NCBI RefSeq assembly: GCF_024713975.1
Contig: NC_091098.1
Location: 11,442,816-11,506,815, forward strand
DNA: 64,000 bases
Source: Paralichthys olivaceus
Lineage: Eukaryota; Chordata; Actinopteri; Pleuronectiformes; Paralichthyidae
Direction of reading: 5' to 3'
A program made the position numbers and the translations under genes. A model generated the notes under the pieces. It did not search any database. It was not told the origin of the DNA and saw nothing but the letters and a program-made list of their open reading frames with translations. Of this stretch, positions 16,114-51,600 are shown piece after piece (position 1 is the first letter of the stretch; each line of letters begins with the position of its first letter).

Positions 16114-16720
16114 GACCGCCTCGGTGTGCACCACTCCTCCCTTCTGCCTGTGAGGGTCGATCCTTTCAGCTTCACCGTGTGGATGTGATCAGCATCGTAC
16201 TCACAACTTTGTAGTTAATTTCCAGTCAGTTAATTTTGGTCTGGCAGCTCAATTACCGCCCCACATCCTTCCAGAGCCAAATGCGCAAAGCAAGATCAGA
16301 TTCCATTCAAGAGCTGCAGCTTTTAAACAAATGACACGTGTTGTTTCACATGTTGAAGTAAAGCTCACTTCTATTTATCTTAAACTAGCCTGATGTCTAT
16401 GTTTGTACCGGACGATGTGGGTCAGTAATCCGCTACCTGTCTATTTTACGCCCGCAGGATGCTGAGCACCTGTTGCAGAAGTTGCTCTGTGTTCCACTAA
16501 ATCGTTTTTATAAAATAAAAACCCAGTTCACCCAGTTTATGATCTGGCTCGGAGAATATTCCGCAGTGTTTTTCTTCTTAGAGCAGATGGCGACATGGGA
16601 CTGAGCGCCTGCTAAATAATCCATCAGGGGGAGGATCGCTGAGCCGGGTACAGGTTGTTGCTCTCTGGGAAATCGGCTCAGAAGTTAAAGGCGCAGTGCA
16701 ACAACTTAAAACTGAGAAGA
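16114..16720 (-). promoter_or_regulatory. espn: espn 5' UTR and promoter region (approximate)
   Basis: This region lies immediately upstream of the espn start codon. It contains a CAGATGG E-box (16584-16590), a class bound by proneural factors such as Atoh1, and a weak TTTAAA element near 16320. The transcription start cannot be placed from sequence. Confidence 0.4.
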
Positions 16721-18180
16721 TATAGAAGTTACACAACTGTGGTGGTGGGCGTCAAGTCAATTAGACCGACGGCTGAAAACGAATTTAGCAATTAACCTTT
16801 TGAATACGTCCGCTCTGGTTTGTATGCAGGCTTCCTGGTTATATCCATGAAAGCAGCATCATTGTGCACACGCTTGCAGCCTGTACAGGTCCATCTGGTG
16901 GTCTATTGCAAAACTGTTCCCTTATATCTATTCAGCCTGTGGTTTTTAACACGAGTCACAGTTTGGAGATATAAAAACATTAACATGACGATCCTCTTAT
17001 GAAATTACTATTTATTAATGATGCATCTTTGCTGCCCTGCATTGTAGCTATAAAAACAATCACTATTTTATATTTATGCTGAGCCAGTGTGTCACAATAC
17101 ATTTTATAATATAACCTATTTATTTATTAGTTATTTTAAACCACTTAATTACAGTGTGAGGACTGGAAAACAATGGGAACTAGTTGTCACTGTGTGTCAT
17201 TAGTAAAAATGTAAGATTACAAGTGCAAGTTTATATGATGATCTGTGCCGTGGTGTAAATAGTATACTTTGACTTTACTTATCCTGAACATTTCTACTTT
17301 TCAGATGGAAATATAATAAGGTTAACAGTCCACTAATTTATCCAACAATTACAGTAGGCCTGTACTATACAGATTAAGAATTCATATCCAATAGAAATGT
17401 TCGCCTTTAAAGCAGTTTAAACTGTGTAACAACCTTAAAGTACCTCAAATTAACCACAGTAATCGCTGCTTGCACGTTAAAGCATAATGACATTACAGAA
17501 TCATAATTGTATTAAAATCTGAGTGGGGCTGATTTGCATTATAAATATTTTGCTCAGGATTTGTGGGTTTTATTTTGAGGATAATATCGGTGCCTTCCAC
17601 CATTGTTTGTCAGTGTTAATGAAGAAAGTCCAAACCTAAACAATAAGTCAGTAACACTGTTCATATCTGTTTGAAACACAGGGAGGCATTATAGTCCCTG
17701 ATGATGAACCTGACGTTATGGAGACCTGCAATACGTTGGATCACCAAACGGTGGCAGGAAAGGTTCATGTTCTGCAAGGTAGCTCTACCTGCAGAGGTGT
17801 GCAGGTGTCAGGTTACCATCACTTTGTATGGGCCTCTTTAAATCACTGTAAACTGGCTCACACACGTCAGCACATTAACCATCTGATCAACGACTACCAT
17901 CATTCATTTGTATATATTGTCGCCTGTTTCCAATGCTCCTATAAGTCTTACAGGCTAAACATTACAAAGATGAGGGCTGTTTGAATTCAAACCAGCACAC
18001 TTGTGTTCAGTCTTTATTACAGGCCAGTATAAAATGTTTACATATTGGATATTTTCATATGATAATGTGAGAGCTGATATAATAGTTATATAAATGCTTA
18101 TTAACAACCTCACAGCAGTTTCGACACTTTGTGCCTGTTTCACTGTCAGATTAGGTTGATTGATTTTTGTGCTCAGAGGT
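16720..18180. other. intergenic AT-rich stretch
   Basis: No gene, RNA or repeat family was recognised; this is ordinary AT-rich non-coding sequence between the espn promoter and the long GT repeat. Confidence 0.6.
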
Positions 18181-26535: not shown

Positions 26536-27195
26536 GTCCTCTGGCTCAGGAGGTATACTGAGTTGTCCACTAACGAGGGGGTCAGCAGTTTCCAGATATA
26601 CAGGTACAGCCCACGTCAGCCAATGATGCTGCACTAAAATGGATATAACCCTATAGTGGGCCACTTTACAATCGTAAATATATCCCACATATCCGAAAAA
26701 ACAAATGTGTGCCTTTTTTGGCAAACATGTGCTGCTCTATACAAGGTGTAATCTGGATGTAAACCTGAGTGGCCCATGTGATAAATGGTGAATATGACCC
26801 AAATAACACAACACCCACCTTTAGCACCTTTGGTTGGTGTGCAGTATTGCTATGGTTTACCTGCCCCAGATCTGGCAAACAGGAGCTGACCATCAAGTGC
26901 TATTGTTCCACATGGCATGTGGGCCCAATGTCATTGTGGGCCAAAACAACTTTGCACATGGGTTCGATCCCAAATTTCCCCCATTCCACATGCGTGGTCC
27001 TTGGACAATATACTAACCCCAACGTTGCCCCTGATGGTTGTGCTGCTAGTGACTGAGTGATGTGTGATGGAGAAAGGGCTGCAGATAGATGCACTGTATG
27101 AATGTGTGTGAGGCAAAATCTTCATGGTGAAGAGCTGTGAGCGGGTTTCAAGACTAGAAAACACAATATAAATACAGAGCATTTATAGATGCATT
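26536..27195 (+). mobile_element. tRNA-derived SINE split by an inserted element
   Basis: The left part (26536-26591) has CTGGCTCAGGAGGTA and GTTGTCCACTAAC. The right part resumes at the B-box-like GGTTCGATCC (26961) and runs through TTGCCCCTGATGG and ACTAGAAAACACAATATAAA. The same SINE lies near 51.0 kb and 59.5 kb without a break. About 370 bases (26592-26960) of unrelated sequence interrupt this copy. Confidence 0.65.
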
Positions 27196-27284
27196 TAGTT
27201 TAGCTGCAGACTTGAGATTTCTGGTGGTTCTTCTTCTTGATTCATTCAATAACAATGCATTTCTGCAAAAAGCTTTAATGTATT

Positions 27285-27330
27285 GAAGGGATAGTTCACT
27301 GAAAATGAAAATTCACTCATTATCCATCAA
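27285..27330. mobile_element. fragment of a dispersed fish DNA element
   Basis: The text GGGATAGTTCACTGAAAATG followed by AAAATTCACTCATTAT resembles the end of a non-autonomous element very common in teleosts (GGGATAGTTCACCCAAAAAT). Only one end was seen. Confidence 0.45.
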
Positions 27331-28554
27331 CCACTATGTTTGAGTCCATAAAACGCTTTTGGAGTTTCAGGGGCAAACAGCATTTAACTTGCACATGCAT
27401 TACTGCTGTGCGTATTGCTTTTTATAAGTCTGCGTTTTCAAGTGAAACTGGATTTCAAACAACAATTTCAATATGAATATTTCCAGAAAAGACAATTTTG
27501 TACTAATTTCTGTAATCTGGAATTACAATCACTACGGGCTCTGACTATTAGTTAAAATCAAATATTTTAAACATTCAAATCAAGACTCACTAAGAATTCT
27601 CCCCATTTGAAATTGAGTACTCTCAATTGCAAAAGCATTAAAAAACCAAACTACATCCAGTATTTACATTGCATATACTGTTATACATTTATATTAAATA
27701 GGGTCTTACCATTGACCCAAATGAGAAATATGAATAATATTTTTTTGGTTTACAATCTTTACAGGATTTATGATTCAAACCTGGCAGTTAAATGCTTTAA
27801 GATAATAATAAAAAAATAATTTTAACCAGCTACATTTAAGATACATTTGATTACAAATTGGAAACAGCAAGAGTTTCAATAATGCTCAGTCTGAACCACG
27901 TGCAGCATAGGGACAAACACCAGCCTGCAGTCTATTGTACAGATGCTTCAGAGTCATTCTTATAATGTTGGCGTAGATTTTGGCTTGGGATGCCAGACAT
28001 CCTTCGAGCTGCAGTCACGATTTGGAGTCTGGAAAAAGCCAGAGGTCTGACATCCTCCGTGTAGCCGTGATGGCGACGATCACCTTCAGCGAGGAAGAGT
28101 CCAGTGACGCTTTTGGTTTCACGGTTCAATAAACCCGCGCAGCCTCCATCTGCCTGGACATGTTGGCTCGTGTCAGTCTCATGCCGTTTATACGCACAAA
28201 TTATTTCTCACCCATTGTTATTTTACTCCAAACTCACTCAAATGTAAAATGTTTTCTGGGAATATATTTAAGATGTATTTCACCTTTTCACATTTTGATC
28301 CAGATTATAAAATAGCCTTGTAAAAATGTAATGTGTTTGTTTATTGTTCTTAATAATCATTAATGATATATAAATCCATTTACCAGTTTTCTTTATCAGA
28401 CTTGAATCTTATTGTCAGAGAGTTCAACAACCTGTGGTTTAAATATAAGAAACTAAGAAAAGTATCATATCTCTTTCGCGTTGAGTTGCTGTAAAATTAT
28501 TGGTGATTCCACTTTTCTGTACGACCTTCAACAAAGGATCACTGTGCTCTCGGC

Positions 28555-28609
28555 TTGCACAGATGGATACCCACGCTGAAACCAGGACAAAAAGGCTCCT
28601 AACCGAAGC
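28555..28609. promoter_or_regulatory. hes upstream module 1, copy A
   Basis: The core TGCACAGATGGATACCCACG, followed by CTGAA and then CTCCTAACCGAAGC, recurs at 38558 and, less exactly, at 37621. It contains the CAGATGG E-box. Its recurrence upstream of both hes genes suggests a retained duplicate regulatory element. Confidence 0.55.
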
Positions 28610-29266
28610 ATCTCTTGAACTTTTTTTTTGTCTCATATCACAGGGTCCGATCCCAGACTGGACTTGATGGCAGTTATGTGGAGGGGCCCCATGGGGCAGG
28701 ACGCGTGCAAAACCCCGCATCTATAATGCCTGGAAAAAATAAGGGTGGAAAACCCCTCAAATTACAGCGGGGCAGCTTGCAGCCGAAGAGCAGCGTCTTT
28801 TTTCTTCTAACCAAAATGATACGAGCTTGTTGAGCTGCACATCTGTTTCTGAATGTAAATAAATGTGGCATTTGAATAGAAGTAAAATAGAAGCGCTTCA
28901 ACGAACAGTTCTGTGCGTAAAATTGGTGCGTAAAGGCAGTATTTGGCATAGATATGTTATTTATCATATTAAGCACAAAAAGATAGATCTGTGGATATGA
29001 TTGAAATATATTAAATTATCTATAACATTTAGCTACAACATTGGTTTATATATAAACGATATTTAAATACATTTTGTTTTATTTGTTCTTTGTGTGTCTC
29101 ATAGGGTTTCCTTATATTGTTGTAGGCCTGGTGCTGCGTTTTTTTTTTACAACGGTACCATTGTGTTTATGACCCAAGCCAAACTCCCTCCAAAAAAAAA
29201 GGAAAGACAAAAAGCGTTGTAGGAGAACAGTGATGGTGAGGTCAGAGGAAGAGGAGCAGGAGCCGG

Positions 29267-29442
29267 GATGCTGATGGGGACCAGCAGAGGAGTGGTGCAG
29301 CGCTGACAGACAGGGGGTGGGAGTGGGGGAGGGTAGTGTTCTTGGGTGTGTAGACATGGAAGAGCTAAAGGGGAGGAGGGAGGGGGGGTCTACATCCATC
29401 TGTTGCTCGGCTGTGGCGCGTGCCGAGCGCGTGAATCCCACT
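29267..29442. promoter_or_regulatory. hes upstream module 2, copy A
   Basis: Two sub-blocks recur at 38748-38894 in the same order: GATGCTGATGGGGA...CAGCAGAGGAGTG, and CCATCTG followed by GTGGCGCGTGCCGAGCGCGT. The second has a nearly palindromic GCGCGTGC core and an E-box. Confidence 0.6.
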
Positions 29443-29820
29443 GGCAGCTCACAGCGCTGTTTGGTTCCATGGTGAACAGCAGAGATTCACTGAAACTCCT
29501 CAACGGTTTTGAAATTAAAACACAATAACATTGAATTGAGTTTGAAATATATGCATTGTTATAAGTTGGTTTATACAAACAAGGGATAGGCTATCACTCT
29601 ATGAAGGTCCAGTCTTTTCCTCTGTCACTGTCCCTCATCGTGTTATCCAGTGTGGGTGCAGACTTGTGTGTTGCATGACTCTTTGTGCACACATATGTTC
29701 ATACGTCATACACACAGTCCTGTGCCTGTGTTGCAGGTTATCACTCAGTCTCCTCCTCCACATGCACGTCAGGTAAACACCGTGTTGTTGGATTGGAAAC
29801 AAGCTGCTGGGGCCTCAATA

Positions 29821-29866
29821 AGCAGATGTTAATCCATACATAGCGTGGCTTGGGTTGCTGATTTAT
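29821..29866. promoter_or_regulatory. hes upstream module 3, copy A
   Basis: AGCAGATGTTA, then TAGCGTGGCTTGGGT, then TGATTTA occur here and at 39268-39311 with nearly identical spacing. It lies about 0.75 kb upstream of the hes copy A start codon. Confidence 0.65.
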
Positions 29867-30357
29867 TAATTTGAGGAATAGATTATTCCTGTCACCACAG
29901 AAACTCTCGTCTGGTTCTGTGTTTTTGGGCAAGTTGAGCCCATGAGCATTATTAAAAATGTGCTTTGTATGTTTTATTATAATCATATACAAATAGTTGT
30001 TCAGTGCTTATACCAATATAACCGTCAGAATTGTCACCACACAAAAAAAGGATCTTTGACCATTTTACCCATTCATTTGAAGGGAATTAAAACATAAACC
30101 GGTTTATCTATCGTACACAAAGATAATAAACTTAACAAAGACAGACGAAACATTAAGCAGTCCTTGAAAATTGGAAGAGCCAGAAAGATGTATATATAAT
30201 GCGGTCCATGTGCTGTGTTAGAGGGAAAGCAACATTGGCTCGTGTGCGTAATCGGATCTTGGATGAAAATTATAGAAAAGTCTTAAAATTTTAAACGCAA
30301 CATCTTCGCGAAACTCCGCATACCAGAGGTAGACTGATGCAGGGGCCCACCAGAGGC

Positions 30358-30474
30358 CAGATGGTCCAGATAGAAGCACCGCTCATCTCCCAGGGGCATC
30401 GCCCCCACCCCTTTCCTCCCTTGTCACAGTGGCTTGTGTTCCCCCCGCCCTGACGCGCCGGACCCACATAAATA
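30358..30474 (+). promoter_or_regulatory. hes copy A core promoter (E-box and TATA)
   Basis: A TATA-like CATAAATA lies at 30467-30474, about 95 bases before the ATG, leaving a short 5' UTR. A CAGATGG E-box (30358-30364) sits about 110 bases upstream of it. Copy B has the same arrangement. No clear TGGGAA-type RBPJ site was seen within 450 bases upstream. Confidence 0.6.
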
Positions 30475-30566
30475 GGAGGCTCGCCAGCTCTGCCTCACAC
30501 TTCAGCTCAGCCGCTCCAAGAGCAATTATCTCTCATCCAAAAGCACAACACCAAGAAGCAAACGAA

Positions 30567-31413
30567 ATGAGTCCCAGCATCATCACAGAGGCCAACCAGC
30601 CTCTCCCTGCCAGGTCCACCGTGGCCCAGAGAAAACACGCCAACGAACTGAGAAAGGTAAGAAATGCGGAGATACTGCACAACTGTCTATTTCACTTGGA
30701 TATGTTTCATGGTCCTGATTGTTTTAAAATTGCAACCATTAACAGTTTTTCATCATTTCTTCCAGACTCTGAAACCCTTGCTAGAGAAGAAAAGACGTGC
30801 TCGTATCAATGACAGTCTCAGTCATCTGAAGAGCCTCATTCTGCCTCTTGTTGGCAAAGACAACGCACGCTACTCCAAACTGGAGAAAGCTGATATTCTG
30901 GAAATGACAGTCCGGTTCCTCAGAGATCTTCCTGCCTCTCCAGTCAAAGGTGAGCGTCGCCGCCTGAACTATGATATTCATATTTTCAAAATGCTTTACT
31001 TCACACATCCTTCCCGTGAATTTCCAGTCACTAATCGAACGTTTTCTTCGCTTCCTCCAGATTCCGCAGACAGTTACAGAGAAGGCTACAAAGCTTGCCT
31101 CCAGCGCGTCTCCGCTCTGCTTCCCAAAACGAGCCTGGATCAAGACGCGTGCCAGCGGGTAAACGACTTCGTTCAGCAGTCCATGTCCGCCACCGTCACT
31201 CCAACCTGCCTGAACTGTTGCGCTCAGAGCTCCAGGAGCCTCCCTCAGATCCAACAGAGACTCCTGAGCCTCAAATCCAGCTTCAGCTCCAGACTGGAGA
31301 GTCAGTCCCGCAGCAGCAGCAGCAGCAGCAGCGGCAACAACAGCGCAGTGGCTCCCAGCCGCGCACAGCCAGGTCCGCAGCCTGTCAGCGCTGCCATGTG
31401 GAGACCTTGGTAG
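30567..31413 (+). CDS. hes2: hes2-like bHLH-Orange transcriptional repressor, copy A
   Basis: A Hairy/E(spl) family repressor: these dimeric nuclear proteins bind N- or E-box DNA and recruit Groucho/TLE. Three exons (30567-30656, 30766-30949, 31061-31413) join to 208 codons plus stop. The basic region contains the family's proline (Pro34, [15 protein letters not shown]). The helix-loop-helix ends near residue 86 ([15 protein letters not shown]). The Orange domain spans about 97-132 ([16 protein letters not shown]), and the C-terminal WRPW Groucho motif is residues 205-208. The start is the only suitable ATG before KRK-like basic residues, and MSP is shared with copy B. The usual intron inside the bHLH is missing, since the junction falls at 30861/30862 in continuous coding sequence. 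A Ser run ([12 protein letters not shown]) expands the tail relative to copy B. Assignment to hes2 rests on similarity and on the espn/acot7 synteny. Confidence 0.9.
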
Positions 31414-31867
31414 ACTAGATGGACATTTCATTTCTCATGTGTGTTATTTATTTTGTGATTTACTACATGTATTACAATAACGTCACTGTAGTCTTGGTGA
31501 CATAAGAAGAAGAATTGTTTGAGTTGCTGTATGATAATGGAATTCAGCATTTGGCTCATTTTGCGTTTAATGCCAGAGGGCACACGAGCACAGATCTTAA
31601 AGAAACGGTAAAGTCTATGAACTTTTTTAAGACGCAATCCTCTTTGGGGTTTCAAAGATACGGGTTGTAGACAACACTTTTGTAAAACCCCAAGGGTTAT
31701 TTTATTTGAGGTTTGCACGATGGACTTAAAAGTATTTTGGTCTGTGCAACATAATAGTCTGTAAACACTATGTGTTAAATAGGATTTTTTATTATACATT
31801 GATGGCATAGAAGAGGAAAACAAACTGTTTTGTGAAACAAATGTTCTGTCACTGACAACTGATTTTC

Positions 31868-31873
31868 AATAAA
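31868..31873 (+). terminator. poly(A) signal, hes copy A
   Basis: A canonical AATAAA lies about 455 bases after the stop codon, followed by a TTTTTGTGTGGTTTG-type GT-rich stretch that suits a cleavage site. Confidence 0.7.
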
Positions 31874-31889
31874 TGTTCACTCATTGAAT

Positions 31890-34380
31890 ATTTTTGTGTG
31901 GTTTGATCTTTATACCTCGTGGTGTTTAAAGTGTCTCGGGTTTATTATGAATCCCAGATGCCTTGAAGAGACTCTCAGGGTTATGAAAGGAATAAAAAGG
32001 CGCGTAAACGCATAAAGCCACAGGTCAGCCGGAGCCCATTGATGCTGCAGGGCAGCTGCTCCATTGTTGCTGATGTGTGGCGCCTCTCTAGTTGCCGCCA
32101 AATTGGTGGGAAGAGGTTGGAGACTGGTTGTGTGATGGGACACACACAGAGAGAGAGGACCACTGCTGTGAATTACAATGATAGATTTAACACACGCGTG
32201 TTCCAGAACCACAATCACAACATAGAGTGGAACATAGAATAAAGTAAGAAGCAGGAACAGAACTATGGGCTCCAATAAATACTATTAAAAGAAACATTTT
32301 AAAATATAAAACATGTAATGGTATCTTTGTGCAGATTGTGCTGAAGTTGTGTAAGTTATATGCAAGTGGTCCATGATGTTTGCATTCATGTAACACATGA
32401 TGTCCATGAGGATCAGTATTAGTTTCCCAGTGGTTTCACATTATGGTGCAATATCTAATTAATTATGAGTTCACATCTCATCACAAAAAATTATAAATTA
32501 TAAATCAATAGACCAATGGCTTTTCACACTATGTAAGATTTCACAGTATAATAATCCAATAATTTTATAGGGCTGCAGTATTTCTGTATGTCTGTAGTTG
32601 TCTATAATGTTTTTTTCCTTTCTCCAACACACACAATTTTACAGCCTATTTTTCGCGGATGATTCTTGTTACAGCAGAAGTCACATTTTAAAGAAGAATC
32701 CACCTTTACTTCCTCAATATTTGACTTCTATAGTCATATTCTATATATAAATATATATTTTTTTATCTTAAAACAATGATCAAATACTCATATGTCGACT
32801 GAAATAGTAACTGGTTGTTTGTAAAAGTTGGGAGTTCCATCTTCATTCTATTAAAAGTAAATTCCCAAGTTTAGCCAAAGTTGATATGAGGCTTCATTGT
32901 CTGAGTTATTGAGTTGCACAGTTTATAGACCTTTTGGTAGAAAACAGAACAAGTTGATTTATCTTACAGAGGCTGAGGTCTCATATTAACTTCAGCTGAA
33001 CTAAAACTGTATTTTCATATGAACACTAATTGTGTGTAATGTTGTGAACAGACAGAATTAATCAGAAAAAAATTGGAGACATTTTTTCATTAAAATTTAA
33101 TTCAGGCTAAAATGCCAAGTATTCATTGGTTCCAGTTTTTCACAGCTTGCTTTGTGTATCATATATGACAGAAAACTGAATATGTCTTGGTTTTGGGCAG
33201 TTGGTTGGACCAGTGATGTTGCACAAGGTTCTTCCTCAGATGTGCTGAGACGTGTACTCGAAACATTACCATGGAAAAACTTGACGTGAGTGTCTTTCCC
33301 ATATTTTTTTGTTGATTTAGCATATTAGTTTCACACAGATAAAACTGCAACTTTATTTTCCTGGAAATCACTTAATCTTCACCGCTCCAAAACAACAGTT
33401 GCACTTTGGTGTCGCTGACAAGTACTGTTTTTAGATCTGCAAAGAGGAAGTGATTTCTGGTAGTGTAGCATTAGCCAGTGCTAGCTAATTTCAGCAATGT
33501 CACAATATTCGATGCTAGAAAGTCCCACAAGTAAAACAGTGACATGTACCATATGAAATACTGCTGTTTCAAATAGTTGTATCAGTGTTGCCAATAACAA
33601 CACTACCAAATCTCATAAAGCATTTGAAAAGCCATTCTACTGAAGAGCAGGAGGAGTTCACCAAGGAGAAGGGAAGAACAACAAACTGCAGTTGCAAACT
33701 TTGGAAACCGCATTCAAACGACATGATCTATTCAACGTAGACAGCCCCAAATCAAGAAATTAGGAGTTCATTGTTGTATATTCCAAGATATATTTATCTA
33801 TATTTATATTTTTTATGGCATCTTTCTCTGTGTGTATTTGTTTTTCAAAGGGTTTATCTGAGCCAGACCACACCACAATTATAGCAATCATCACTTCCAT
33901 GCAGGGTTAGTCGCATACAGCTGTCAAACTATGTCATATACGTTTTTTCTTTTTTAATGCACTGATATCGGTTCATTACTCAGTATCAGCCGACATGCAA
34001 GGTCCAGGTAGCTGTATTGGATCATCTCTACCCATTAGAAGTATCTGTGATCTGTACAAGTTCTCATGTGTTATGACTCTGTGTGTCCTGTTTCTTATTT
34101 TGTTTTGAAACTGAATCAATGATTTAACATTCATTCATTCTTTTATGTCAAAGAGAAATCAGACCTCGAATAAGGAATATAAAATATAGAAGGCTTCTTA
34201 TTTGGATTGGGATCCACCACCTTCAAGTCAGTATTTAGTATATTAGTATGTCCTCAGTCATTGTGAATAGATCTCTGTCAACTTTGAACATCTGAGCACT
34301 GCAGTGTTCAAACTACTCATGCTTTGGGGGATCATGAGTGAGATCTTTTGGATTGTGTTGGAAGACTTTCAGTCATGATT
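31890..34380. other. non-coding interval after hes copy A
   Basis: No gene was recognised. At 31985-32130 a GC-richer block contains CAGCTG and a GGTGGGAA that resembles an RBPJ/CSL site (GTGGGAA at 32106-32112). The rest is AT-rich and unremarkable. Confidence 0.5.
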
Positions 34381-34383
34381 TAG

Positions 34384-36150
34384 AATCCACCGCAGCACAG
34401 AAACAGCACTGTTAAAAGTTACTGATGACCTTTTCATGGCATCAGATAATGTCTCTATACTTGTCCTGCAGGATCTTAGTGCCACATTTGACACCATAGA
34501 TCATACAATTCTGTTACAGAGACTGGAACAACGTGTAGGGATTAAAGGAACAGCATTAAGCTTGTTTAAGTCATATTTATCAGATAGATTTCAATTTGTT
34601 CTTATTAACAATGACTCTTTCATGCACACACAGGTAAGTCATGGAGTTCAACAAGGTTCTGTCCATGGACCAATACGCTTCACCTTATATATGCTCCCCT
34701 AAGGCAACATCATCAGAAAGCACCACTAACACTTCCATTGTTACGCAGACGACACCCAGCTGTACATATCTATGAAGCCTGATAAATCTAATCACTTAGT
34801 TCAACTTCAGGAATGTCTCAAGAACATCAAGGCCTGGATGACCCAAAACTTCTTACTTCTTAACTCAGACAAAACTGTTGTCGTTGTAATTGGCCCTAAA
34901 CATCTCAGATAATCACTGTCTGACCAGATAGTCACCTTGGATGGTATTAGTTTGGCCCCCAGCTCCACTGTGAGGAACATGGAGTTAGGTTTGACTAGGA
35001 CATGTCATTTGACCCACATATAAAACAAGTCTCTAGGACAGCTCTCTTCCACCTGTGCCATATTATAAAAATTAGGAACACCCTGTCTCAGAAGGATGCT
35101 GAGAAACTAGTCCATGCATTTGTTACCTCCAGACTGGATTCCTGTAATTCTTTATTGTCAGGATGTCCCAGTAAGTCTGTGAAAAGCTGCTAGTTGGTCC
35201 AAAATGCTGTAGCACGAGTGCTGACAGGAACTAGAAGGAGAGATCATATTGCTCCTGTCTTAGCCTCTCTGCATTAACACCCTTTAAAATTCAGTATAGA
35301 ATTCTAGAACTTGCTCCTCACATTCAACAATCAAGCCCCTTCATATATCCTGTGAAAGCAGCTCCTACTCTTGGTTCGGGAGGCAGACACTATCTCTACA
35401 TTTAAGGTTAAAGGGTTTTGATAAAGGCTGAATCAGGTGAGTCCGGAACCATCCCTTAGTTATCATCACCATCATGCACTGAGCACCTCTCCCCTTCTTT
35501 CTGTCTCTCTGCCCCCACATTTATTTATTTATTTAATTTACTGCATGTCACTGACTTTGTTTTTTCCTTTGTCTCTCTCTTTCCCTCTCTCTCTGTCTCT
35601 TTGTCTCTCTGTCTCTCTCTCTGCAGATATCTCTGACTCCAAAGCTGCAGAATTCAGATAACAACTATCATCATATGAACGGTTACTGCTGTCATTAATA
35701 ACATCTTTACATCCATAATTATCACTCATATTGTTTTCATTATAACAACTACTCTGTCAGAGCTGAAACTTGATGGTGCACAACTGTTCCTGCATGGTCT
35801 CTCTCTCATCTTTCTCCCCCTCTCCTCCCTCTACCCTCCCCCTCTCTCTTCTCTCCCCTTTTTTCCACCCACCTGTCCTTTCCTCCCCAGTTTTGTCTGC
35901 TGACCCCAACCGGTTGATGCAGATGGCCGCTCACATTGAGTCTGGTTCTGATGAGGCTTCTACCAGTTAATGAGCATGTTTTTTTCTCTCCACAGTCCAA
36001 AGTGCTGCTCACTGTGGGAACTGTTGAACTGTTGAACGGTTGGGTTTCTCTTTTTAAGGTCTTGACCTCCTATTTAAAGTTCCTTGAGATAATGTATATT
36101 ATAATAATTATAGCGCTTTACAAATAAAATGTAATTGAATTTAATTGAAT
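34384..36150 (+). mobile_element. degenerate L2/Maui-like LINE (reverse transcriptase and 3' end)
   Basis: From about 34384 the translation reads STETALLKVTDDLFMAS, TFDTIDHTILLQRLE, SYLSDRFQFV and GVQQGSVHGPI, then HCYADDTQLY and NFLLLNSDKT. These are reverse-transcriptase motifs, including the YADD active-site box. The frame is broken by several stops and shifts, so the element is dead. The 3' end (about 35900-36150) has GATGGCCGCTCACATTGAG, a CCTTGAGATAATG block, and an AATTGAATTTAATTGAAT tail typical of fish L2 elements. A pyrimidine-rich microsatellite stretch (35500-35640) lies inside. Confidence 0.85.
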
Positions 36151-38550
36151 CTGAACCTTGACTGTGTGGCTTCAAGCTAAGGCTCACTGTCATGTTGGAC
36201 AACACATCTCCAAATCTCCAGGTTGCAGGTCTCTTATAGACACCACCATATTTGCTCTATAGCTGCATTCATCCCCTACCCACAAGACTTCAGTCCTGCT
36301 GCTTAGAAGCATTCTCCATAGCACCATGTTTTATTTTAGGAGATACAGATTTGTAAAAAACACTTAAACATGGAGGTAAGGTGTGCCTCCTGACATACTG
36401 TAGCTGAGATGGAATGAGTAGTCTCTCCCACGCTTCCATAAAGCTGCTCTTGAGCTAGACACTGACTTTCCAGTCTAAAGATTGAAACAGTGTCAGAGTT
36501 GTCATCGGTCTCTTGGTATCTTGTGCGGTCTCTCCTTTGTGGTTTTCAGTCATTTTTGGTTGAGTTATTGAGACAGTTCCTTTGTCTTCACATGTTTCAT
36601 GACGCTGACTCTCCAGCTGAGATACTGATGCATTTATGCTATAAAACTCTCCAGTTTACTAACCAGCTTTGTTTTTAACATTTCTAAGTGACTGCACCGT
36701 GATTTATCTGTGGGTCAATATTTACAAAGACATGTATTTTTTATCGTAGCTCATATCATCTTCTAGAAACTCTTCTCAAGCAAGGGGTTTCTATGATTTG
36801 CATCGTAAAATGCATAAAATACAACTTTCATTACATATTTGTAGAGAAACATACTTGAGTGTAGTGCAGTGGTACAGGATGAATACAATAGGATGTTTAC
36901 TGTTTTTATCTGAAGTGATATTGATAAAGACATACATATATGTTATAAGTGTAGGAAGACATATACATTATGAACATGACCTAAAAATTGTATGTGCTAT
37001 ATGAGTATAAATCCACAGTAGTATACAATATGATCTAAATATAAAAATGAATTGAATTGAAAGTTAATTTTTACAGTAAGAGTTATACATATGGAATTAT
37101 GGTATGAAATGTGTACACGTTGTAGACACACAAGTAATATGCAAGGGATACTAATGTGCAAAAGGACAAATTATGCAGTTTTTATTATTCATTTCAAATT
37201 GTGCTTATTCAGTTTTACTATTTTTGTTGAACATGAAGAAAGGGATTAAATCTCACAAAAGTAACGAAAATGACCATATTAGCCAAAAAACTGTACAAGT
37301 CTGATTTCACTATATTTGATTGCAGGGAGATGTGTTGTGTTCACGTTTGCTTTCATTGCTGAACAGAATAATGCATAAACACTGCAGACAACACATTTTG
37401 TCAACATATTACATTTCAATTTAACTGCTCCTCTTCATGTGGAGGGATCAGACATTGTCCAAAGCTGGAAACGACGCTTGGCGTTGTGTGTGACACCGGA
37501 GCCACATCACAGCAGCGGCAGGAGTCAGGTGGAGTCCCGCTTGTTGCGTCTCCACCATGTGACTCTTAATTCCCATGAAGTGTCGGAACATTGTCAGACA
37601 AAGGCTCCCTGTTATCCGGCCTGCACAGATGGGTCACCGACGCCGAATTTGCCTGTAGAGACAAAGGAGGACTCTAACCGTAAGAGCAAAAACTCAGGAG
37701 AAGTGGTTGCCCCCACCCAGCGACCTCCGCCCATCCCCCATCATCATCATCATCACCATCATCCCTCCATCCCAGCGGGACGGAGAGGGGCGCGTGCAGC
37801 AAGTGTGCCTCTCAATTTCAGGCCAGCAACGCTTGTCTCCTTTCTTCTTTTTTTAAAGCAGAACATGATGGCGACCTCAACATTTTGATTCTGCACTTTG
37901 TTTTTTCCATTTCAAGTTGTGGAAATAGAAATGAAATATAGCCTGCATGTGCATATAGATTAACCACATGCAATTCCACAGAAACTACAGTTAAAACTAT
38001 TGTGCCATAAAAAGGAAGGACAACCAACCACATAAATATAGGCTCGTATTAATTAGAAAATAATATAACGTTAATAGGCTACAAAAAAGCTGAGTACAAC
38101 GTTGGCTGCAGACTTTAGAGTTGTAAGTGAACTTCAAATCCATTGGATAACAGTTTCCCTTTGTTTGTTATACTTGACACGTATATAACTCATATGCTAT
38201 GTGGCTTATATACTTTTATTTTTGCCAAATTGTCAGAATGCATGTCAGAATAAAACGTTCTTTTAAAGATTTGAACAATCTCACTGAGCGTTTTGCAGTG
38301 TGATTCTATAATCTACGGGGCCATGAGGCAGCGTGCTCCTCCAGACAAACATCTTTCATCTCCATGCGTCATGCAGACTGAGCTTTGTGTTTCGTCATCA
38401 CCATAGCATTGATAAACAAGTACCTCATGATGGCGTGGACGCTGAAATATCCACGGAGTCAAGCTATAGAAAACAATTGCAGCACGGAGTTAGTGAACGG
38501 GGAGGGGGGGTTGGTTTGTTTCAGTTGAACTAACATGGAGCCATAATAAC
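36151..38550. other. non-coding interval upstream of hes copy B
   Basis: No exon was recognised. A GC-richer block at 37438-37800 contains a partial extra copy of hes module 1 (37621-37680), a short CAT run (37740-37760), and a GGGCGCGTGC motif. The rest is AT-rich. Confidence 0.5.
37621..37680. promoter_or_regulatory. possible third copy of hes module 1
   Basis: TGCACAGATGGGTCACCGAC followed by GCCGAA and then CTCTAACCG aligns with 28555-28609, with several mismatches and small gaps. Confidence 0.4.
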
Positions 38551-38557
38551 TCGCATA

Positions 38558-38576
38558 CAGATGGGATACCCACGCT
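38558..38576. promoter_or_regulatory. hes upstream module 1, copy B
   Basis: CAGATGGGATACCCACGCT matches the copy A module at 28558 except for one inserted G. It is followed within 50 bases by the GT repeat at 38625. Confidence 0.55.
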
Positions 38577-38623
38577 AATACTGCGTGGAGATCATGTCTC
38601 TTGGCTTGTAAAGTTTATGGTGA

Positions 38624-38624
<1 letters not shown>

Positions 38625-38696
<72 letters not shown>
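38625..38696. repeat. (TG)36 microsatellite
   Basis: An uninterrupted TG repeat separates module 1 from module 2 upstream of hes copy B; copy A has no such repeat at the matching place. Confidence 0.97.
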
Positions 38697-38698
<2 letters not shown>

Positions 38699-38747
38699 TA
38701 TGGATGAGGGATGGATCTACGATTGGACATGGGGATTGGCTCCTCGT

Positions 38748-38894
38748 GATGCTGGTGGGGATAGCAGGAGGAGTGCATGTGTGTTGGGGGTGGAGGGGTG
38801 GTGGGGCTCAGCGATGGAGGTGGGTGGGGTGGAAGGGTCGGTAACAGACAGCCATCTGGTCCCCGTGGCGCGTGCTGCGCGCGTGGTTCCCCTG
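38748..38894. promoter_or_regulatory. hes upstream module 2, copy B
   Basis: GATGCTGGTGGGGATAGCAG and GTGGCGCGTGCTGCGCGCGT repeat the two sub-blocks of copy A (29267-29442) in the same order, including the CCATCTG E-box. Confidence 0.6.
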
Positions 38895-39267
38895 AGTGCA
38901 GTGGTATTTGATGGGTCGTCATGTCTCTGCAGTTTTTATTGAAAAATCTCAAAGATGTAAGTTTGATTCATATTCCTCACAGGGCACGATGCTTTTAGTT
39001 ATTAACTACATGGAGTATTTCACCAAAGTATTGTGTGTACCCAAGGTCCCATGAGTTTAAACACAGGGTAACTTTACTGTACTGTGATTATCGGCTATTG
39101 TGATTAAAGAACATGCACCCTCACTGGCCACCCTCTGGCTTTCAGCCCCCACCGCCCTACATGCGTGAGTGGCTGGCAGCAGGGGGATGCACCGTACAGG
39201 TAGAGACTCCCCCGGGCTGAAACTGCATTAAACGTCATATGCAAAACTATTGTTGTCCAAATCTAGG

Positions 39268-39311
39268 AGCAGATGTTATATGAAAGTAGCGTGGCTTGGG
39301 TATGTGATTTA
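39268..39311. promoter_or_regulatory. hes upstream module 3, copy B
   Basis: AGCAGATGTTA, TAGCGTGGCTTGGGT and TGATTTA are shared with copy A (29821-29866). The GCGTGGCTTGGGT core is identical. It lies about 0.93 kb upstream of the copy B start codon. Confidence 0.65.
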
Positions 39312-39979
39312 AGAGTCTGTATCTCCATAGACACTTAACGCGCACGCAAGCGTGCCCCCTATGCCAGCAATGTATGTACTGCACCCTGTTCTAAGTGTGC
39401 TGGATTATTTTTGAAATATTTCCAATATTCAGCATTAAATTATATGTTTTAAAAACTGAAACTGATCCAACCAAATGAGATTATAAATAATAATAATACA
39501 TGATAATAATATACGATACTACCAACTGGAAAGAAGCAGTCAACTGCATCTTCAATCAAATGGAGACATTTTTGTCTCGATAAACATAATTCTTTTTGTT
39601 TATTCTGATGTGTTTCATCAGTAGCTCACCTAATATTTACATGCTATTAACCCTACGCTTTTCTCCAAACATATACAGCCCAAGTATTGGTGCGTAATTA
39701 CGCGCCAGATATTTGTATTCAACAAATAAACAACATTATTTTCCATCTATACTTGAGAATTGATTACTAATAATGAGCTAAATTGTTTACTTTTTAACAG
39801 TATGTTTATTTGGAGAGTGCAGATTTGTATTTGGTGAATGGGCATTCGGTGCGTCCAAGCTTTAGGCTTCTTTACGCACAGTTTTCTGCAGCTTTTTGAG
39901 GCACAATTTGTCTGATTAGGTCGATGGATTTTACCGCAGACACGCACTGCAGTTGTCACGCTTGGATTAGAGTAGAAGA

Positions 39980-40114
39980 CAGATGGTTATCTTTCCAAAA
40001 TGTGAAGCGCTTGCGTTGTTTTCACCCAATACGTAGTCATTTCAAATTGTTTTGTGTCGGCTTGGGGGCGTACCCGTGACGCACGAAGACCGAAGCCACA
40101 GACCTGGATAAATA
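39980..40114 (+). promoter_or_regulatory. hes copy B core promoter (E-box and TATA)
   Basis: ATAAATA at 40108-40114 lies about 82 bases before the ATG. A CAGATGG E-box at 39980-39986 sits 128 bases further upstream, paralleling copy A. Confidence 0.6.
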
Positions 40115-40195
40115 CCGCAGCCTTCGGCCGTTAGAGACACTCTTCCACCAGATTTGTACTCCGGACACTTCTCTGGCACAAAGACGACGCTGAAA

Positions 40196-41118
40196 ATGTC
40201 TCCAAACATGACTTGTGAAGCTCTCCAAGCTTTTTCTCCACGACCATCTGTGGCCAAAAGAAAACAGGCCCTTGAGATCAGAAAGGTATGTGAAGTCCTT
40301 GCATTTTCTTTCCTTATTTTAAACATTTTGTTCTATGTATTTCTCTTGATGTAACGAATGAAAACTAAACATCATTTTATCTTTTCAGACTATGAAACCT
40401 TTGATGGAAAAAAGAAGGCGCGCCCGTATCAACGACAGCCTGAACCACCTGAAAAACCTCATCCTCCCCCTCACAGGCAGAGATGTAAGTTATCATATAC
40501 ATTTCAGTATATGCAATATATACGCCTTTTATTTATACAAAAATCAAGGTAACGTAACGAATGATATATTAAACATGTTCTTTTTATAATTTTCCACAGA
40601 AGACTCGTTATTCCAAGCTTGAGAAAGCCGACATCCTTGAAATGACTGTGAGGTTCCTCAGTGACACCCCCCCTGTTAACACCAAAGGTGGGTTATGGTT
40701 CTGCTTGTTTGCAGATAAAAAACTGATTCTTTATTGATGTGAACGTTGTTTTGAACAATGAAAGTAACATTTCATTGTCTTTTCAGATTCAACAGACAGT
40801 TACAGAGAAGGTTTCAAAGCCTGCCTCCAGCGCGTTTCAACCCTGCTTCCCAAAACGAGCCTGGATCAAGACGCGTGCCAGCGGGTGAACTGCTTCGTTC
40901 AGCAGTCCATGTCCGCCACCGTCAGCCCAACCTGCCTGAACTGTTGCGCTCAGAGCTCCAAGAGCCTCCCTCAGATCCAACAGAGACTCCTGAGCCTCAA
41001 ATCCAGCTTCAGCTGCAGACTGGAGAGTCAGTCCCGCGGCAGCAGCAGCGCAGTGGCTCCCAGCCGCGCACTGCCAGGTCCACAGTCTGTCAGCGCTGCC
41101 ATGTGGAGACCTTGGTAG
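40196..41118 (+). CDS. hes2: hes2-like bHLH-Orange transcriptional repressor, copy B
   Basis: A Hairy/E(spl) repressor and tandem paralogue of copy A. Four exons (40196-40285, 40389-40484, 40600-40687, 40787-41118) join to 201 codons plus stop. Pro34 lies in the basic region (MKPLMEKRRRARIND). The bHLH runs to about residue 86 ([15 protein letters not shown]). The Orange domain starts at [16 protein letters not shown], and WRPW occupies 198-201. The four-exon layout, with an intron between GRD and KTRYS in the bHLH loop, is the usual hes arrangement. The last exon is almost identical to that of copy A, including CQRVN and [16 protein letters not shown]. Exon 1 and the bHLH exons differ much more. 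The start is the first ATG after the TATA box with matching MSP. A second in-frame ATG at codon 5 cannot be excluded. Confidence 0.92.
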
Positions 41119-41609
41119 ATCTCTCAACTTCAAGAAGCCGGGTCTCACCAAAGCCTGGAAAAGACTAAAATAATTCATATGTAGGTAACGTGTTCAGATA
41201 GATTCACTTGTAAATATACACAGTGATTTAATGCCTCGTTTCCGATGATGAAAAGCCAGAATTCATCGTTAAATCGTAATGATTGAGTATTATATACTTA
41301 CGTTTTGCGCACGAGTCTTATGTCCTATATAAGTTGACAAGTTTAGACAGTCGTATTTTTTAAATCTGCATGTATGTATACGTTAAATATTTAGTCCTCT
41401 TTGTGGACTAAATGATGAAGGGCTGTTGAAACAGCCCTGTAAGACCCAAAGGGTCAAAGTATGTATGAATTTGCACCATAGACGTCAGTGTCCTGAGTCT
41501 GTGCAGATGAACATTGTAGACATATTATGTGTCTCTGCTGTATCTCTGTTGGGATCTGTTCTATTTTTGCTATTGTCAGCAAATGTTGTATATATGCTAT
41601 ATAAACAAA

Positions 41610-45612: not shown

Positions 45613-48600
45613 ATGACGGGTTTCATCGGTCTGCATCAGTGGGTGTGTTGGTTGTGATCCAGTTTGACCAGTTGTCATGAAGTCAGTAAGGCGGGGTCAA
45701 CATGAAACCCTGCCAGGTATTAGTCGCTGCCGGGACCTAATTCTCCAGAGTCAGTGGATGTAGAGGCAGGAGAGAGGCTGGAGGTCAGAGGGTGAGAGTC
45801 AGTCAGGCTGGTGCAGAGATGCGGTGTTTCAGACCTCGGAGGGCGGCGGATGAAGTGGATAAGCTGGTGAAACGTCCCCTAGTCAGCGGAGATGTCAGGG
45901 AAGGAGGGGAGAGCTCCACATCTCAACTCAGCAGGTAGATCATCACACTGAGCTGCAACGTAAACACCACCACACGTGTGTGGTCAACATGACACTGGAC
46001 CCTACAGGGCTGTGTTTAGCGTTAGCTCGCTGTTAGCCACTAGCTCCCTGAATGTGTCTGTGTATCACGAGGAAGGATTCAGACTCCATTTACGAGACTT
46101 CATGATCACCATGGTGACACATATGAAAGCTGAGAGATGCTCAGTTTTTTTATTTGATTAGTTCATTATTTGTATCAGCCCCACAACAGTGACATTTGAG
46201 TTAGGGCAGCAAAGAGGACAGTGAAAAAATAGAATCAGTAAAATGATGAGCAAACATGCAACAGAAGGGAAATATATATAAATAGAAATAATACATACAG
46301 TGTATACAATATATATAATATATATACAGTAAGAGCAGCATATATACAGTGAAAGGGATTGCACATTGACCATTGAATTGTACATAAATGAATTGTATAT
46401 ATATATATAACTATTGTATATATTATACTTACCCCCAAACCTTAATCAGGAACAATTAATACCTTATCCTAACCTAACCACGGTTTAAATCTTACCACTA
46501 ACCTTAACCAGGACCTCAGACATGATGTTTTGCCTCATTAGGACCGAGCTTTGGTCCCCATGAGGTCTACTGGTCCTGACAAAGTCAGTGATAATGATGG
46601 AAAAGTTCCCAAAGAGATAACAGGCATACACACACACACAGAGGGATGCTGGATGTACGGTTTGCTTTTTGTACCAGACAACACATCTGACAATAGGTTT
46701 CACAGCGTCAGTCTCGTAGGTCTGAACTTTGACATTCATCTACACAAGGAACATTCATCACATTCCTGCAAATCTTAACAATGTGATTAGTCAGATGTCA
46801 GTGCAATGGTGCATACTTGTGTGTTTGTAACCTCTGAGTTTGTGAAGCGATCAGATTGTAAGTGGTAAGACTAGTTTGACGCACGCACTCGAGAATAGGA
46901 AACAGCTGATACGTGACACTGATGCATAGACAATGATATATAATGTATGTCGACTATATCTACAAGCACATCACAGCAGTTGTTGTTCCTGGTCCCTTTG
47001 TCTGCCTTTTGTCAACAAACATGGTTTCATTAAACAGGCCTTTCTTTTATTAAAGCAAAATATTGGCCTCATGGTTCAATTAAATCAACTACACTAACTA
47101 GAATGGCACTCATATACCCCCACCAGGTCAAGAAACCACATTGAAATTCATACTAACAAACTGACTAACTATCAAATGCCCATGGAAACATAACCTTGTC
47201 GGAGGTAATTTACCCATCTTCAGCCTTCTGTCTCAAGGTTCTGACTCAAATCAGTTTTTTTAAACTCAGTTGTTATAAGAAGAGCTTCATATCTGTGAAG
47301 GCTCAGTCCTTCAGGTCATTATTTCTGCAGGGTTTGTTCACCCGTACACAGAGAAGTGGACTTGCTGGTGTTCTCTTGAAGACATTTCACCTAATCCAAG
47401 AGGCTTCTTCACTTCTAACTGACTAGTGGAAGGTTTTCATGTATTTACCTCTGTGGGTCTGTTGATACCTGTGAGTTGTAGACCCTCCCAGATTTTGGGT
47501 CATTAGCGTCACTGGAGTTGAGGTGGGATACTGAGCTGTCTGGGGAGAGAATCCTGGACAACATTGTAGGTGGTTGATAGTTGGTGTCTTAAACAATTAA
47601 CTATTAAGTTGACTGATGGTTTTCCCAGTTTGACAAAGATGGCTTCTTTCACCCCTCTTTCAAACCATCTGCCTTCTCTGGCTAAAATTCGTTCCATTAC
47701 CATCCTCAAAAGAGTGTCCCTTGTCCTTGATTTATATAAATAAACTGCTGAGTACAGGCCTGATGAAGTGGTGCACCTATGCTGGGCCATCTGTTTATGT
47801 ACTGATTGTTTTATTCCGCAACGTCTGAGCAATCCTTGTTACAAAGCCCTGCATAATCCACATTGTTCTGTTTGTGTCTGGATGTCTTATCTTCCATAAG
47901 AAGAAATTTCTCTCTCTCTCTCTGGAAACTAAAAATAAAATATGTGAAACAGGATGCTGTCATAACACATGATGCTAATAACACGTGTTAAACCTACCAT
48001 TCATCAGATCACTCGGTTAATCTTAATACATCTCCTCTTTACTGCAGGATCATGCGGCCAGATGACGCCAACATCATGGGCAACGTCCATGGCGGCACTA
48101 TCCTCAAGATGATCGAGGAAGCTGGTTGCATCATTGGCACACGACACTGCAACACACAGAACGGGGTGAGAGACGAGGACAAGGGTCATCATGGAAGAAC
48201 ATATGTACATAGTCGTCTGAACTGTAGAAATGAACTGCTCAATGAAATGAACTGCTCAATAGCCCATATTAACCTTAAATTGGGAAAAATTAAAATCAAC
48301 CAAAGGTTTTGTTTTTCTTTCACAGTGTCATTAGAGCTGAAAAGCTTTTAGAACTGCTGAATAGATAGAATATGGCAAAGTCTTATAGTACAGCTTTTAA
48401 ATCTGATATGTAAAAATGCGGAACTATAGGATACCTTTCATAAAAAATCTGTAGCATGTTACATCACAATGTGTTTACTAAGCTATTGCATTCTCTGGTA
48501 TGCCATACCAAGAACTGAGTTTCCTCAGTCATCACATATTTTGTGCACAAGGGATATATCTTTTACAGACATCATGGTTCCTTTAACTAATCTGACAGTA

Positions 48601-51600
48601 TGAACAAATGTTGATGAATAAGATTAAGAGGTTTTTACCTGGGTTTGCCCCTACAACCTCAACAACCTGATCGTGGACACACTGAAATTGCAGGAGCTAA
48701 AGAAGAGCAGGCGACGTACTTCAGTTCACAACTACATGTTTATTCAAATGGGATGGCTACTATGAAAAAAGAGAAAACAACAGAGTTCACAAGGACAAAC
48801 GAGCAGGCATTACTCCAGGGAGATTCGATCATATACCCCAATAGAAACCATCACATGTGCACGCTGTGATCACTGGCAACACTGCAACCACAGGTCGTAG
48901 AATTGAGGGTGATGAAAGTCATTGTTTACTAAATTGCATCTTTTAAAAAAGACATTTTCGTGGTGAATTTGTGCATGACATTCCTTGAAGCTTGGAGGTT
49001 TGCTGTTTCTCTTCGCCAGGACCGCTGTTTGGCAGCTCTGGTTCGGGTGGAGAAGACAGAGTTCCTGTCCCCTGTGTTCATCGGCGAGGTCGCCCACGTC
49101 ACGGCTGAGATCACGTACACCTCCAAGCACTCACTGGAGGTGCAGGTCCAAGTTATGGCTGAGAACATCCTCACAGGTGACTTATTTGGAAATGTAAAAA
49201 CAGGCACTTACAGTGTACAACATAGTAAAGTTCAGGTATTGCTTTAACTATCTGATAATAAATGAATAATTTCATTCAAAGTAAATCATTAAAATTTAGT
49301 TTGTATAGTTATAATGTTACACATGCGTTGAGTCAATGATTTTGCTTTGTGGAAATCACGTTGAAGCTGCTATAGGTTTTTTTAAATCTAAGGATCAACA
49401 TCAGGGGAGATTCCTACTAATAAAAACAGAAGTTATGTTGCTGAATAACCTTTGTCTGAGAGGAACTTATAGCAGACACTAACCACAGGTGTTCCAAAAA
49501 ACAATAACCATCTGTCTCTGTAAGACATGACAGTGGGACAGTTTTCGCCAACAGTAGCACCAGGATAAAATTCAATCACTATTTTTTTATTATTCATACA
49601 TGCTTTTTCTGAAATTACGTGGAAAAAAAGCTGCTGATGTGGCCCTCGCAGAACTGTAATACATTCATCCAATCATCTGGACATGACCAGGGAGATGCAC
49701 ACTCTTGAAGCAGAGACGGTAGCCAGAACTTAGCGAGTGAGTCACTTTGAAAAATATAATTCAACTACATAACTGTGATATTCTGCCATTTGATCAGTGG
49801 AGGGCAGCATACGATAAGTAAAGCAGCTCGGAGCAGCATGAACGCTTACAAGCACTTTACAGGAGGAGCTGCATTTAGAGCTGAGACACGGGAATAGAAA
49901 CTCAGAGTCGTGTTGGCTGAGTGATGCAGTCTGTGTGTCTTGTTAATTACTAAGATTTGTGCACCTTTATTGTGTGCCATGTACATAACAAAGCATGCAG
50001 AAACATACATTATGTATGCAGACACATGCACACACACACACGCACGCACGCACACACACACACACACACACACACATGCTACCCAGAGTCCCTTCAGTAA
50101 AGACACAGGGAGGATCACATTGTGCTGACCTAGCGTTGTCTCTGAACCTTTAAATGCCAGAAGCAACAGAAATTCACAGACTGCCTGAAACAACCAAATG
50201 TCACGTGCTGTACTGGAACTTCTTTAGTTCACATCCAGGTTGGATAGACGCTGCATATACCTAGTAATACATGCAAAGATAGACACATGCAACATATCAT
50301 TGAAGTTCTGCAACATGTGCAGTTTCTTGAGATGAACAACAGCAAAGCTCACTGGATTCTGTGTTGTTTTTATTTGTTTTTATGAATTCGAAATGAAGAG
50401 GGAGTTTGATTAAAGCAAAATGTCCCTCTTCCATTTCAGAAGATCCGAGAGAGTGACGTATAGAGAAAGAACGAGGGATATGGAAGTGAGACAGGAAGAC
50501 AAATGGGAGGAGATAAGTAGTCAGACATATCAATGGGCAGAAAGACAGCTGAGAGATTGAAAGAGGAAGCAAGATTGAGAGTACGGAAGAGACGGAAAAA
50601 AGCATGGAGGAAAGGAGGTGTGAGAAACAAAAGAAGTATCCCCTAGACAGCCGTTGCCCTAGCAACAGGCTTATACTGGTTGGTTGGCTGGTTGCTGGGC
50701 TGGAAGCAGGTTGACGGAGGCGGAGGCAGTGATATGAGATGACAGGTGGAGAGAAGCGGATGTACATACAGGCATCTTCACAGGCAGCCCACTATAGTAG
50801 GTGGCCCTGCCAGGAAGGACCTCAGTCAGGAAGAGAGCTGATGGAGGGAATACACTGAAGGCACTTCTCATAGTGTTGCAAACTGTTATTTTCCAAGACG
50901 TTAATTTCATTTTCTTTTTTTTGTTAATTAACATACATTTTTGGCACGTAGTTATTGTTGGCGGCTGTGACTCAGAAGGTAGAGTGGCTCGTCCACTTTT
51001 TAAATTCTGCATGTCAAAGATATTGAACCCCAGAGTGCCCCTGATGGCTGTGCAGACAGTGTGCGATTGATAGAGAAATCGCTGCACATTGAAGCACATT
51101 GTAATATTGTGCGTCAATGGTTGAATGGCAAAACTGTACTGTGAAACGCATTGAGAGGACATCAACACTAGAAAAGCTGCTCTGAAACTGCTCTCTAATT
51201 ACTGAAGCTCTGTATGGTAGTTTTAGTAATTATTAGATTTAACAAACTTTTCCACTTCAATAATTGCACAGCTTTGCGTGTGAGAGCTCAAAGAACAGTA
51301 AACAGTTCTGAAGTCTAGGTGCAGGTTCACTGTCAGGGCAGTGTGGGTGTAATGAAGATGAGGAGCTCATGCTTATGTCGAGAGCAGGCGCCGAGGTGAG
51401 TTCCTCTGGGAGGACAAAACTTCCCTTTCGAGCTCTCTGGAGGCTGCATGGGCCAACCACAACATCTGTGATGGGATTTGCCAACGTAATAGCCCAAATG
51501 ATATGTATAAACTCTGCCTTCACCCTGATTAAGATTAAATGGCATAATTTTTTAGTCTAAAAATACAAAAAAAAAACTTGCATACCACTTTGAGAGAATA

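Follow-up and report, generated by a model that had tools for sequence, protein, structure and literature searches.

Short conserved non-coding elements beside developmental regulators have been described for duplicated co-orthologues of Fugu, where they are kept in both gene copies and are partly partitioned between them (PMC1896008). The same likeness is found in a stretch of 64,000 nucleotides from the flounder Paralichthys olivaceus (hereafter the window; C6:11442816-11506815 in a 588 Mb genome of 25 contigs), in which three non-coding modules lie upstream of each of two tandem hes2 genes, here called copy A and copy B. However, the Fugu pairs derive from the fish-specific duplication and were recognized by fish-mammal alignment, whereas the flounder genes form a tandem pair with proximal elements that are compared between A and B. 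A second parallel is the Drosophila Enhancer of split complex, which likewise clusters basic helix-loop-helix (bHLH) repressors opposing proneural identity (PMC3390367, PMC3261227). Its modules are Notch-activated through Su(H) sites together with local activators, whereas in the flounder a single consensus Su(H) site lies upstream of B and none upstream of A. At the level of the genes, the zebrafish carries a tandem pair of HES2 genes on chromosome 8 with intron loss in one of them, and the main text of the paper describing it uses neither of the terms 'conserved non-coding' and 'gene conversion' (PMC3396596). A literature search over titles and abstract openings, covering few subscription journals, found no account of the hes2 modules or of conversion in the last hes2 exon.

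Non-coding elements conserved between paralogues are thus of a known kind, of which the hes2 modules are a clear example. The modules are best read as proximal cis-regulatory elements of short length, duplicated along with hes2 when the old tandem pair arose and since preserved in both copies by purifying selection, a reading to which a probability of roughly 0.8 is assigned. It is favoured because of the statistical significance of the matches, their order, their uniqueness in the genome, the age of the duplication and the non-coding conservation of one module region in other sequences.

Modules shared by the two upstream regions

Local alignment was performed between 27000-30567 (A) and 36500-40196 (B) with a score threshold of 28 and with a tandem repeat in B masked (38600-38696 or, in later comparisons, 38617-38696). 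Five matches score at least 28, all of which are the modules. With B replaced by local dinucleotide shuffles (200 in all), neither the best score nor the match count nor the colinear chain score was ever equalled. The opposite-strand comparison of the upstream regions gave no match scoring at least 28. This upholds the original prediction, made from the sequence alone, of modules 1, 2 and 3 in the same order and on the same strand before both genes. The modules and genes are as follows:

Module 1, copy A: 28528-28608, + strand; ACAAAGG ... CAGATGG-ATACCCACGCT ... GACAAA ... TAACCG
Module 1, copy B, main partner (B1): 37594-37684, + strand; 67 of 92 columns identical to module 1 of A
Stretch around B1: 37557-37823, + strand; conserved non-coding DNA with tblastn matches of nine outside sequences in three frames
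Module 1, copy B, second partial match (B2): 38557-38576, + strand; CAGATGGGATACCCACGCT
Module 2a, copy A: 29264-29294, + strand; from local alignment and shuffles
Module 2a, copy B: 38745-38775, + strand; from local alignment and shuffles
Module 2b, copy A: 29392-29439, + strand; CATCTG E-box and two CACGCG 11 bp apart (minus-strand sense), doublet at 29416-29433
Module 2b, copy B: 38848-38891, + strand; layout as in A, doublet at 38868-38885
Module 3, copy A: 29821-29865, + strand; AGCAGATGTTA-TAGCGTGGCTTGGGT-TGATTTA
Module 3, copy B: 39268-39311, + strand; from local alignment, shuffles and genome-wide pattern search
hes2 copy A: 30567-31413, + strand; exons 30567-30656, 30766-30949 and 31061-31413, splice sites predicted from sequence
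hes2 copy B: 40196-41118, + strand; exons 40196-40285, 40389-40484, 40600-40687 and 40787-41118

Within the window, five long strings are confined to the two hes2 upstream loci, all on the + strand. Their starts in A and B are 28567 and 38566 for ATACCCACGCT, 29267 and 38748 for GATGCTG.TGGGGA, 29413 and 38865 for GTGGCGCGTGC.G.GCGCGTG, 29821 and 39268 for AGCAGATGTTA, and 29841 and 39287 for TAGCGTGGCTTGGGT. These strings lie where they had been predicted, but the CAGATGG of module 1 starts at 28560 and not at 28555. By themselves, CAGATGG and TGATTTA are common in the window (CAGATGG 13 times on the + and 14 times on the - strand). Module 1 of A matches B at two sites, of which B1, the best partner, had been missed, while the predicted partner, B2, is a second, partial match to the right half only; in copy B, module 1 is divided between B1 and B2, about 960 bp apart. 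The spacing downstream is partly kept, module 3 starting 429 bp (A) and 420 bp (B) after the start of module 2b.

The best match of each module anywhere in the window is its partner module, and for modules 1, 2a, 2b and 3 none of 300 shuffles reached the observed score; the same holds for module 1 of A against B with B1 masked, which leaves B2 (0/300). As real-sequence controls, 46 comparisons per side were made with other, partly overlapping, window DNA. Three matches score at least 32 between the upstream regions, compared to at most one in any control, and the chain score is 90 compared to at most 68, order and orientation of the modules being the same beside both genes. What tells against the matches taken singly is that comparison of the A region with other parts of the window also yields scores of 37-52. 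The control scores of 52, 44 and 41 were traced to 27001-27183, outside the modules, and those of 37 to 21-bp matches at 28218 and 28952. Because some single control scores match or exceed those of the modules, it is the number and order of the matches that stand out and not each score. The segment 27001-27183 is a dispersed repeat, diverged to about 67% identity with its other copies in the window. A wide comparison of the window at a loose cut-off also gave weak matches at 18144/39909 (score 33) and 35652/44770 (score 32).

The DNA between modules had been called diverged, which applies in full to the spacers between modules 1 and 2a and between 2a and 2b, where 45 and 87 of 100 shuffles reach the alignment score. 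The spacers from module 2b to 3 and from module 3 to the start codon are borderline (5/100 shuffles each), and weak likeness may remain in them.

Genome-wide pattern searches point to the same two loci. Exactly two occurrences each were found for AGCAGATGTTA-N(3-16)-AGCGTGGC, for the module 2b doublet GCGCGTG-N4-GCGCGTG and for TAGCGTGGCTTGGGT, all at the two hes2 loci, and for CAGATGG-N(0-2)-ATACCCACGCT, in module 1 of A and B2. Reversed control patterns gave no match for three of these signatures and one for the GCGCGTG-N4-GCGCGTG control. A search of the genome with stretches of modules 1, 2 and 3 of copy A and of the B1 region (E, the expectation value, up to 10) returned only self-matches; it is too coarse to recover even the partner copy and excludes close repeats only. 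A dispersed repeat, named at the outset as what would undo the prediction, is rejected on both results. No stray fish DNA was found in viral and prokaryote contigs.

Conservation beyond the flounder, which the original prediction had proposed as a check, is found for the B1 region; for modules 2 and 3 and the A-side module 1 the basis is the comparison of A with B. When the open frame over B1 was used as a protein query, nine predicted proteins from short contigs were retrieved. Used as tblastn queries (P0160-P0168), these nine outside sequences align to flounder 37557-37823 in three forward frames, P0166 and P0167 crossing flounder stops. Since the stretch is conserved but read in shifting frames, it is judged to be conserved as non-coding DNA. 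In the flounder it contains TTCCCATG (37570), ACAAAGG, CAGATGG, ACAAAGG, TAACCGTAAG and GCGCGTGC (about 37790). By hand reading of the protein residues, all nine outside sequences are compatible with CAGATGG, TAACCG and GCGTGC.

There are hints that the A-side promoter near 30358 is conserved as well. The string CAGATGGT occurs at 30358 and 39980, which is -209 and -216 from the respective start codons. By eye, the N-terminal extensions of other fish records (P0085 and P0124; MVQTGAPL...) look like the flounder translation that begins at the ATG within CAGATGGTCC (30358).

Age of the duplication and likeness of the last exons

The hes2 duplication is old, as had been proposed, judging from synonymous sites and protein trees. 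Of the 26 fourfold sites that can be compared across exons 1-3, A and B agree at 10, which is near saturation. The trees were built from 24 genera picked by hand, with both copies among the best 120 proteins per listing, together with the flounder. In the tree of exons 1-3 for these 25 genera, A separates from B at 100% support, and in no species do the two copies pair with each other. FastTree gave the same split (support 1.0, no same-genus pair) for 32 genera, after addition of Scophthalmus, Sarotherodon, Cyprinodon, Fundulus, Anableps, Pseudoliparis and Channa. The sampled genera include Polymixia, Lampris and Lota, which presumably places the duplication before acanthomorph diversification. 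With spacers and synonymous sites so nearly saturated, DNA that is still shared is probably functional, and the locus offers a compact natural test of which regulatory DNA survives an old tandem duplication.

The last exons (31061-31413 in A, 40787-41118 in B) behave differently from exons 1-3. They are 94% identical over 109 aligned codons (327 bp), with 42 of 49 fourfold sites identical and a single gap of 21 bp (7 codons). In the last-exon tree of 25 genera the A/B split is lost and 14 of the 25 species pairs group by species, 13 of them with support of at least 85 and Genypterus with 13; with 32 genera, 16 pairs do so (support 0.18 to 1.0). Apparently, recurrent and lineage-specific gene conversion has been confined to the last exon, as judged outside the flounder from protein sequences only. 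Several genera carry no sign of homogenisation, for example Gambusia, Pholidichthys and Anableps, with last exons 60-61% identical. The flounder's own last exons are not among the pairs that group by species, and the homogenisation may therefore date from a flatfish ancestor.

Predicted inputs and alternative explanations

CAGATG with CACGC no more than 30 bp away is found in module 1 (A and B2), module 2b (both copies) and module 3 (both copies). In the two upstream regions 7 of 11 CAGATG sites are so paired, compared to 5 of 64 elsewhere in the window (Fisher p about 1e-4, for a pairing chosen post hoc and with paired sites that are not independent). CACGCG is present three times before each gene, in corresponding order and with the second and third sites 11 bp apart in A and B alike, and CACNAG N-boxes number six upstream of A and three upstream of B. 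Sites of the N-box or class C type, as sought for Hes autoregulation, are thus near both genes. Hes factors are described as having a preference, attributed to the proline of the basic region, for N-boxes and class C (CACGCG) sites (PMC12313500), and E-boxes are bound by proneural factors (PMC5665482).

From the pairing of sites and these two binding preferences, we propose, tentatively and at somewhat less than even odds, that the modules are small enhancers under proneural activation with Hes auto- and cross-repression. A proneural-type bHLH activator would bind CAGATG, and Hes-type repressors, the Hes2 proteins included, would bind the nearby CACGC/CACGCG sites, foremost the module 2b doublet. 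In neural and sensory progenitors the two hes2 genes would be activated jointly, each directly repressing itself and its partner. Further input, SOX-like (ACAAAGG) and SIX-like (GATACC), may come in through module 1.

Some published expression accounts favour this proposal. In zebrafish, hes2.2 is termed Notch-independent in supporting/progenitor cells of the inner ear (PMC9540346) and marks retinal progenitors (PMC10465922). Xenopus Hes2 is expressed in retinal progenitors (PMC3549485) and in placodes, and is listed among presumptive Six1/Eya1 targets (PMC5035141). The modules would provide short candidate enhancers for a Hes gene that one study terms Notch-independent in fish inner-ear progenitors.

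Notch-responsive Hes enhancers carry high-affinity or paired Su(H)/RBPJ sites, an arrangement that was found upstream of neither A nor B. The Su(H) consensus YRTGRGAA has no site in A 28000-30566 and one in B 37300-40195, CATGGGAA on the - strand.

Several observations weigh against the proneural and Hes inputs proposed here. The Su(H)-like TTCCCATG lies inside the B1 region, and by hand reading the residues of seven of the nine outside sequences are compatible with it; Notch input to copy B may pass through this site. For module 1 in copy B, a CACGC within 30 bp accompanies the CAGATG of B2 but not that of B1 (37626), and one of the seven paired CAGATG sites (39980) is not common to A. Two pairs are not significant alone: the CACGCG sites at 28702/37791, whose score is reached by 73 of 300 shuffles, and the proximal E-boxes at 30358/39980, for which 144 of 300 do so. 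The SIX, SOX and Su(H) labels are assumed from consensus strings and not from scored matrices. Furthermore, Hes autorepression is described via N-boxes (PMC5665482), hes2.2 is also termed a Notch-signalling gene (PMC10465922), Xenopus Hes2 appears in the Six1/Eya1 list with dashes and no merged statistics (PMC5035141), and HES2 is up in ATOH7-mutant human retinal cells, which the authors attribute to Notch (PMC11240604).

Close to an even chance is given to a variant within the favoured explanation, in which the modules are regulatory and kept but respond to inputs other than proneural E-box activation and Hes auto- and cross-repression. Such inputs might be EGR-, AHR- or NFI-like factors on GCGTGG/TGGCTTGG, or Notch/RBPJ at TTCCCATG. 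The variant would account for the longest invariant block of module 3, TAGCGTGGCTTGGGT, which the E-box does not explain, for the Su(H)-like site within the conserved B1 stretch, and for the HES2 rise in ATOH7-mutant cells (PMC11240604). On the other hand, the recurrence of CAGATG near CACGC in modules 1 (A and B2), 2b and 3 and the lack of a YRTGRGAA site in A 28000-30566 argue against it.

It is improbable that the modules belong to unannotated transcripts, whether as upstream exons or as small proteins or structured RNAs. B1 and module 2 of A are indeed overlapped by open frames (149 and 109 codons). However, the B1 stretch is read in three frames, some of them across flounder stops, neither of the two frames contains a Pfam family at E up to 0.001, and no Rfam match at gathering score was found in the window. 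In modules 2 and 3 gaps break the frame, and the overlapping frame is without a Pfam family. A coding or RNA-family reading of the modules is thus rejected or unsupported.

Gene conversion, instead of selection, as the source of the likeness of the upstream regions is very unlikely, even though conversion seems active at this locus on the last exon. The last exon forms one continuous tract, 94% identical over 327 bp with one 21-bp gap, whereas the modules are 20-92 columns long, 73-95% identical, contain indels and stand between diverged spacers; the B1 stretch is, moreover, conserved in outside sequences as well. Conversion of the modules was judged unlikely from this shape of tract. Chance or a dispersed repeat has next to no likelihood, for although the window is rich in short motifs like CAGATGG, a diverged repeat lies at 27001-27183 and single scores of 37 arise elsewhere, 0/200 and 0/300 shuffles reached the observed scores and the signature patterns are confined to two loci in the genome.

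A wider and rather doubtful proposal is that the hes2 pair has been held interchangeable on two levels since before acanthomorph diversification. The E-box/class C modules would make the pair a cross-repressing unit under proneural control, and recurrent conversion of the last exon would keep the Orange/WRPW halves alike in many lineages while the DNA-binding halves stay distinct.

Gene pair, neighbours and 3' element

The copy B protein is 100% identical over its full length to a Paralichthys olivaceus HES-2-like record, and genes of the copy A type are labelled HES-2.1 in some fish records, naming being inconsistent among them. A genome search with the copy B protein gave 19 matches, of which the best six are exons of the two hes2 genes in the window and the remaining 13 (34-62% identity, E no better than 1e-8) belong to distant Hes relatives. 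Both proteins have the HLH domain above cutoff (Pfam), the basic-region proline and the WRPW end. The Orange domain scores above its cutoff of 25.3 bits in copy B (26.0) and below it in copy A (20.1). The intron 40485-40599 of copy B is absent from the matching region of copy A (30766-30949).

On one side of the pair lie ankyrin open reading frames on the - strand (6104-6469 and 15802-16188), read as espn, and on the other side 4HBT thioesterase open reading frames on the + strand (47992-48348 and 48933-49244), read as acot7. With these readings, the locus has the neighbours expected for a HES2 gene, as medaka hes2.2 is situated near espn and acot7 (PMC8320183).

The original prediction of a duplicated regulatory landscape is partly supported, the shared modules being candidate regulatory elements, but it had missed a shared element of 138 bp past the stop codon of both genes, the score of which was reached by none of 500 shuffles:

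3' shared element, copy A: 31638-31775, + strand; 3' untranslated region by position, 95 of 142 columns identical to 41395-41532
3' shared element, copy B: 41395-41532, + strand; partner of 31638-31775

When folded, the copy B element forms three clean hairpins and that of copy A differs. Between the two hes2 copies, at 34436-34699, lies a retroelement reverse-transcriptase fragment (RVT_1).

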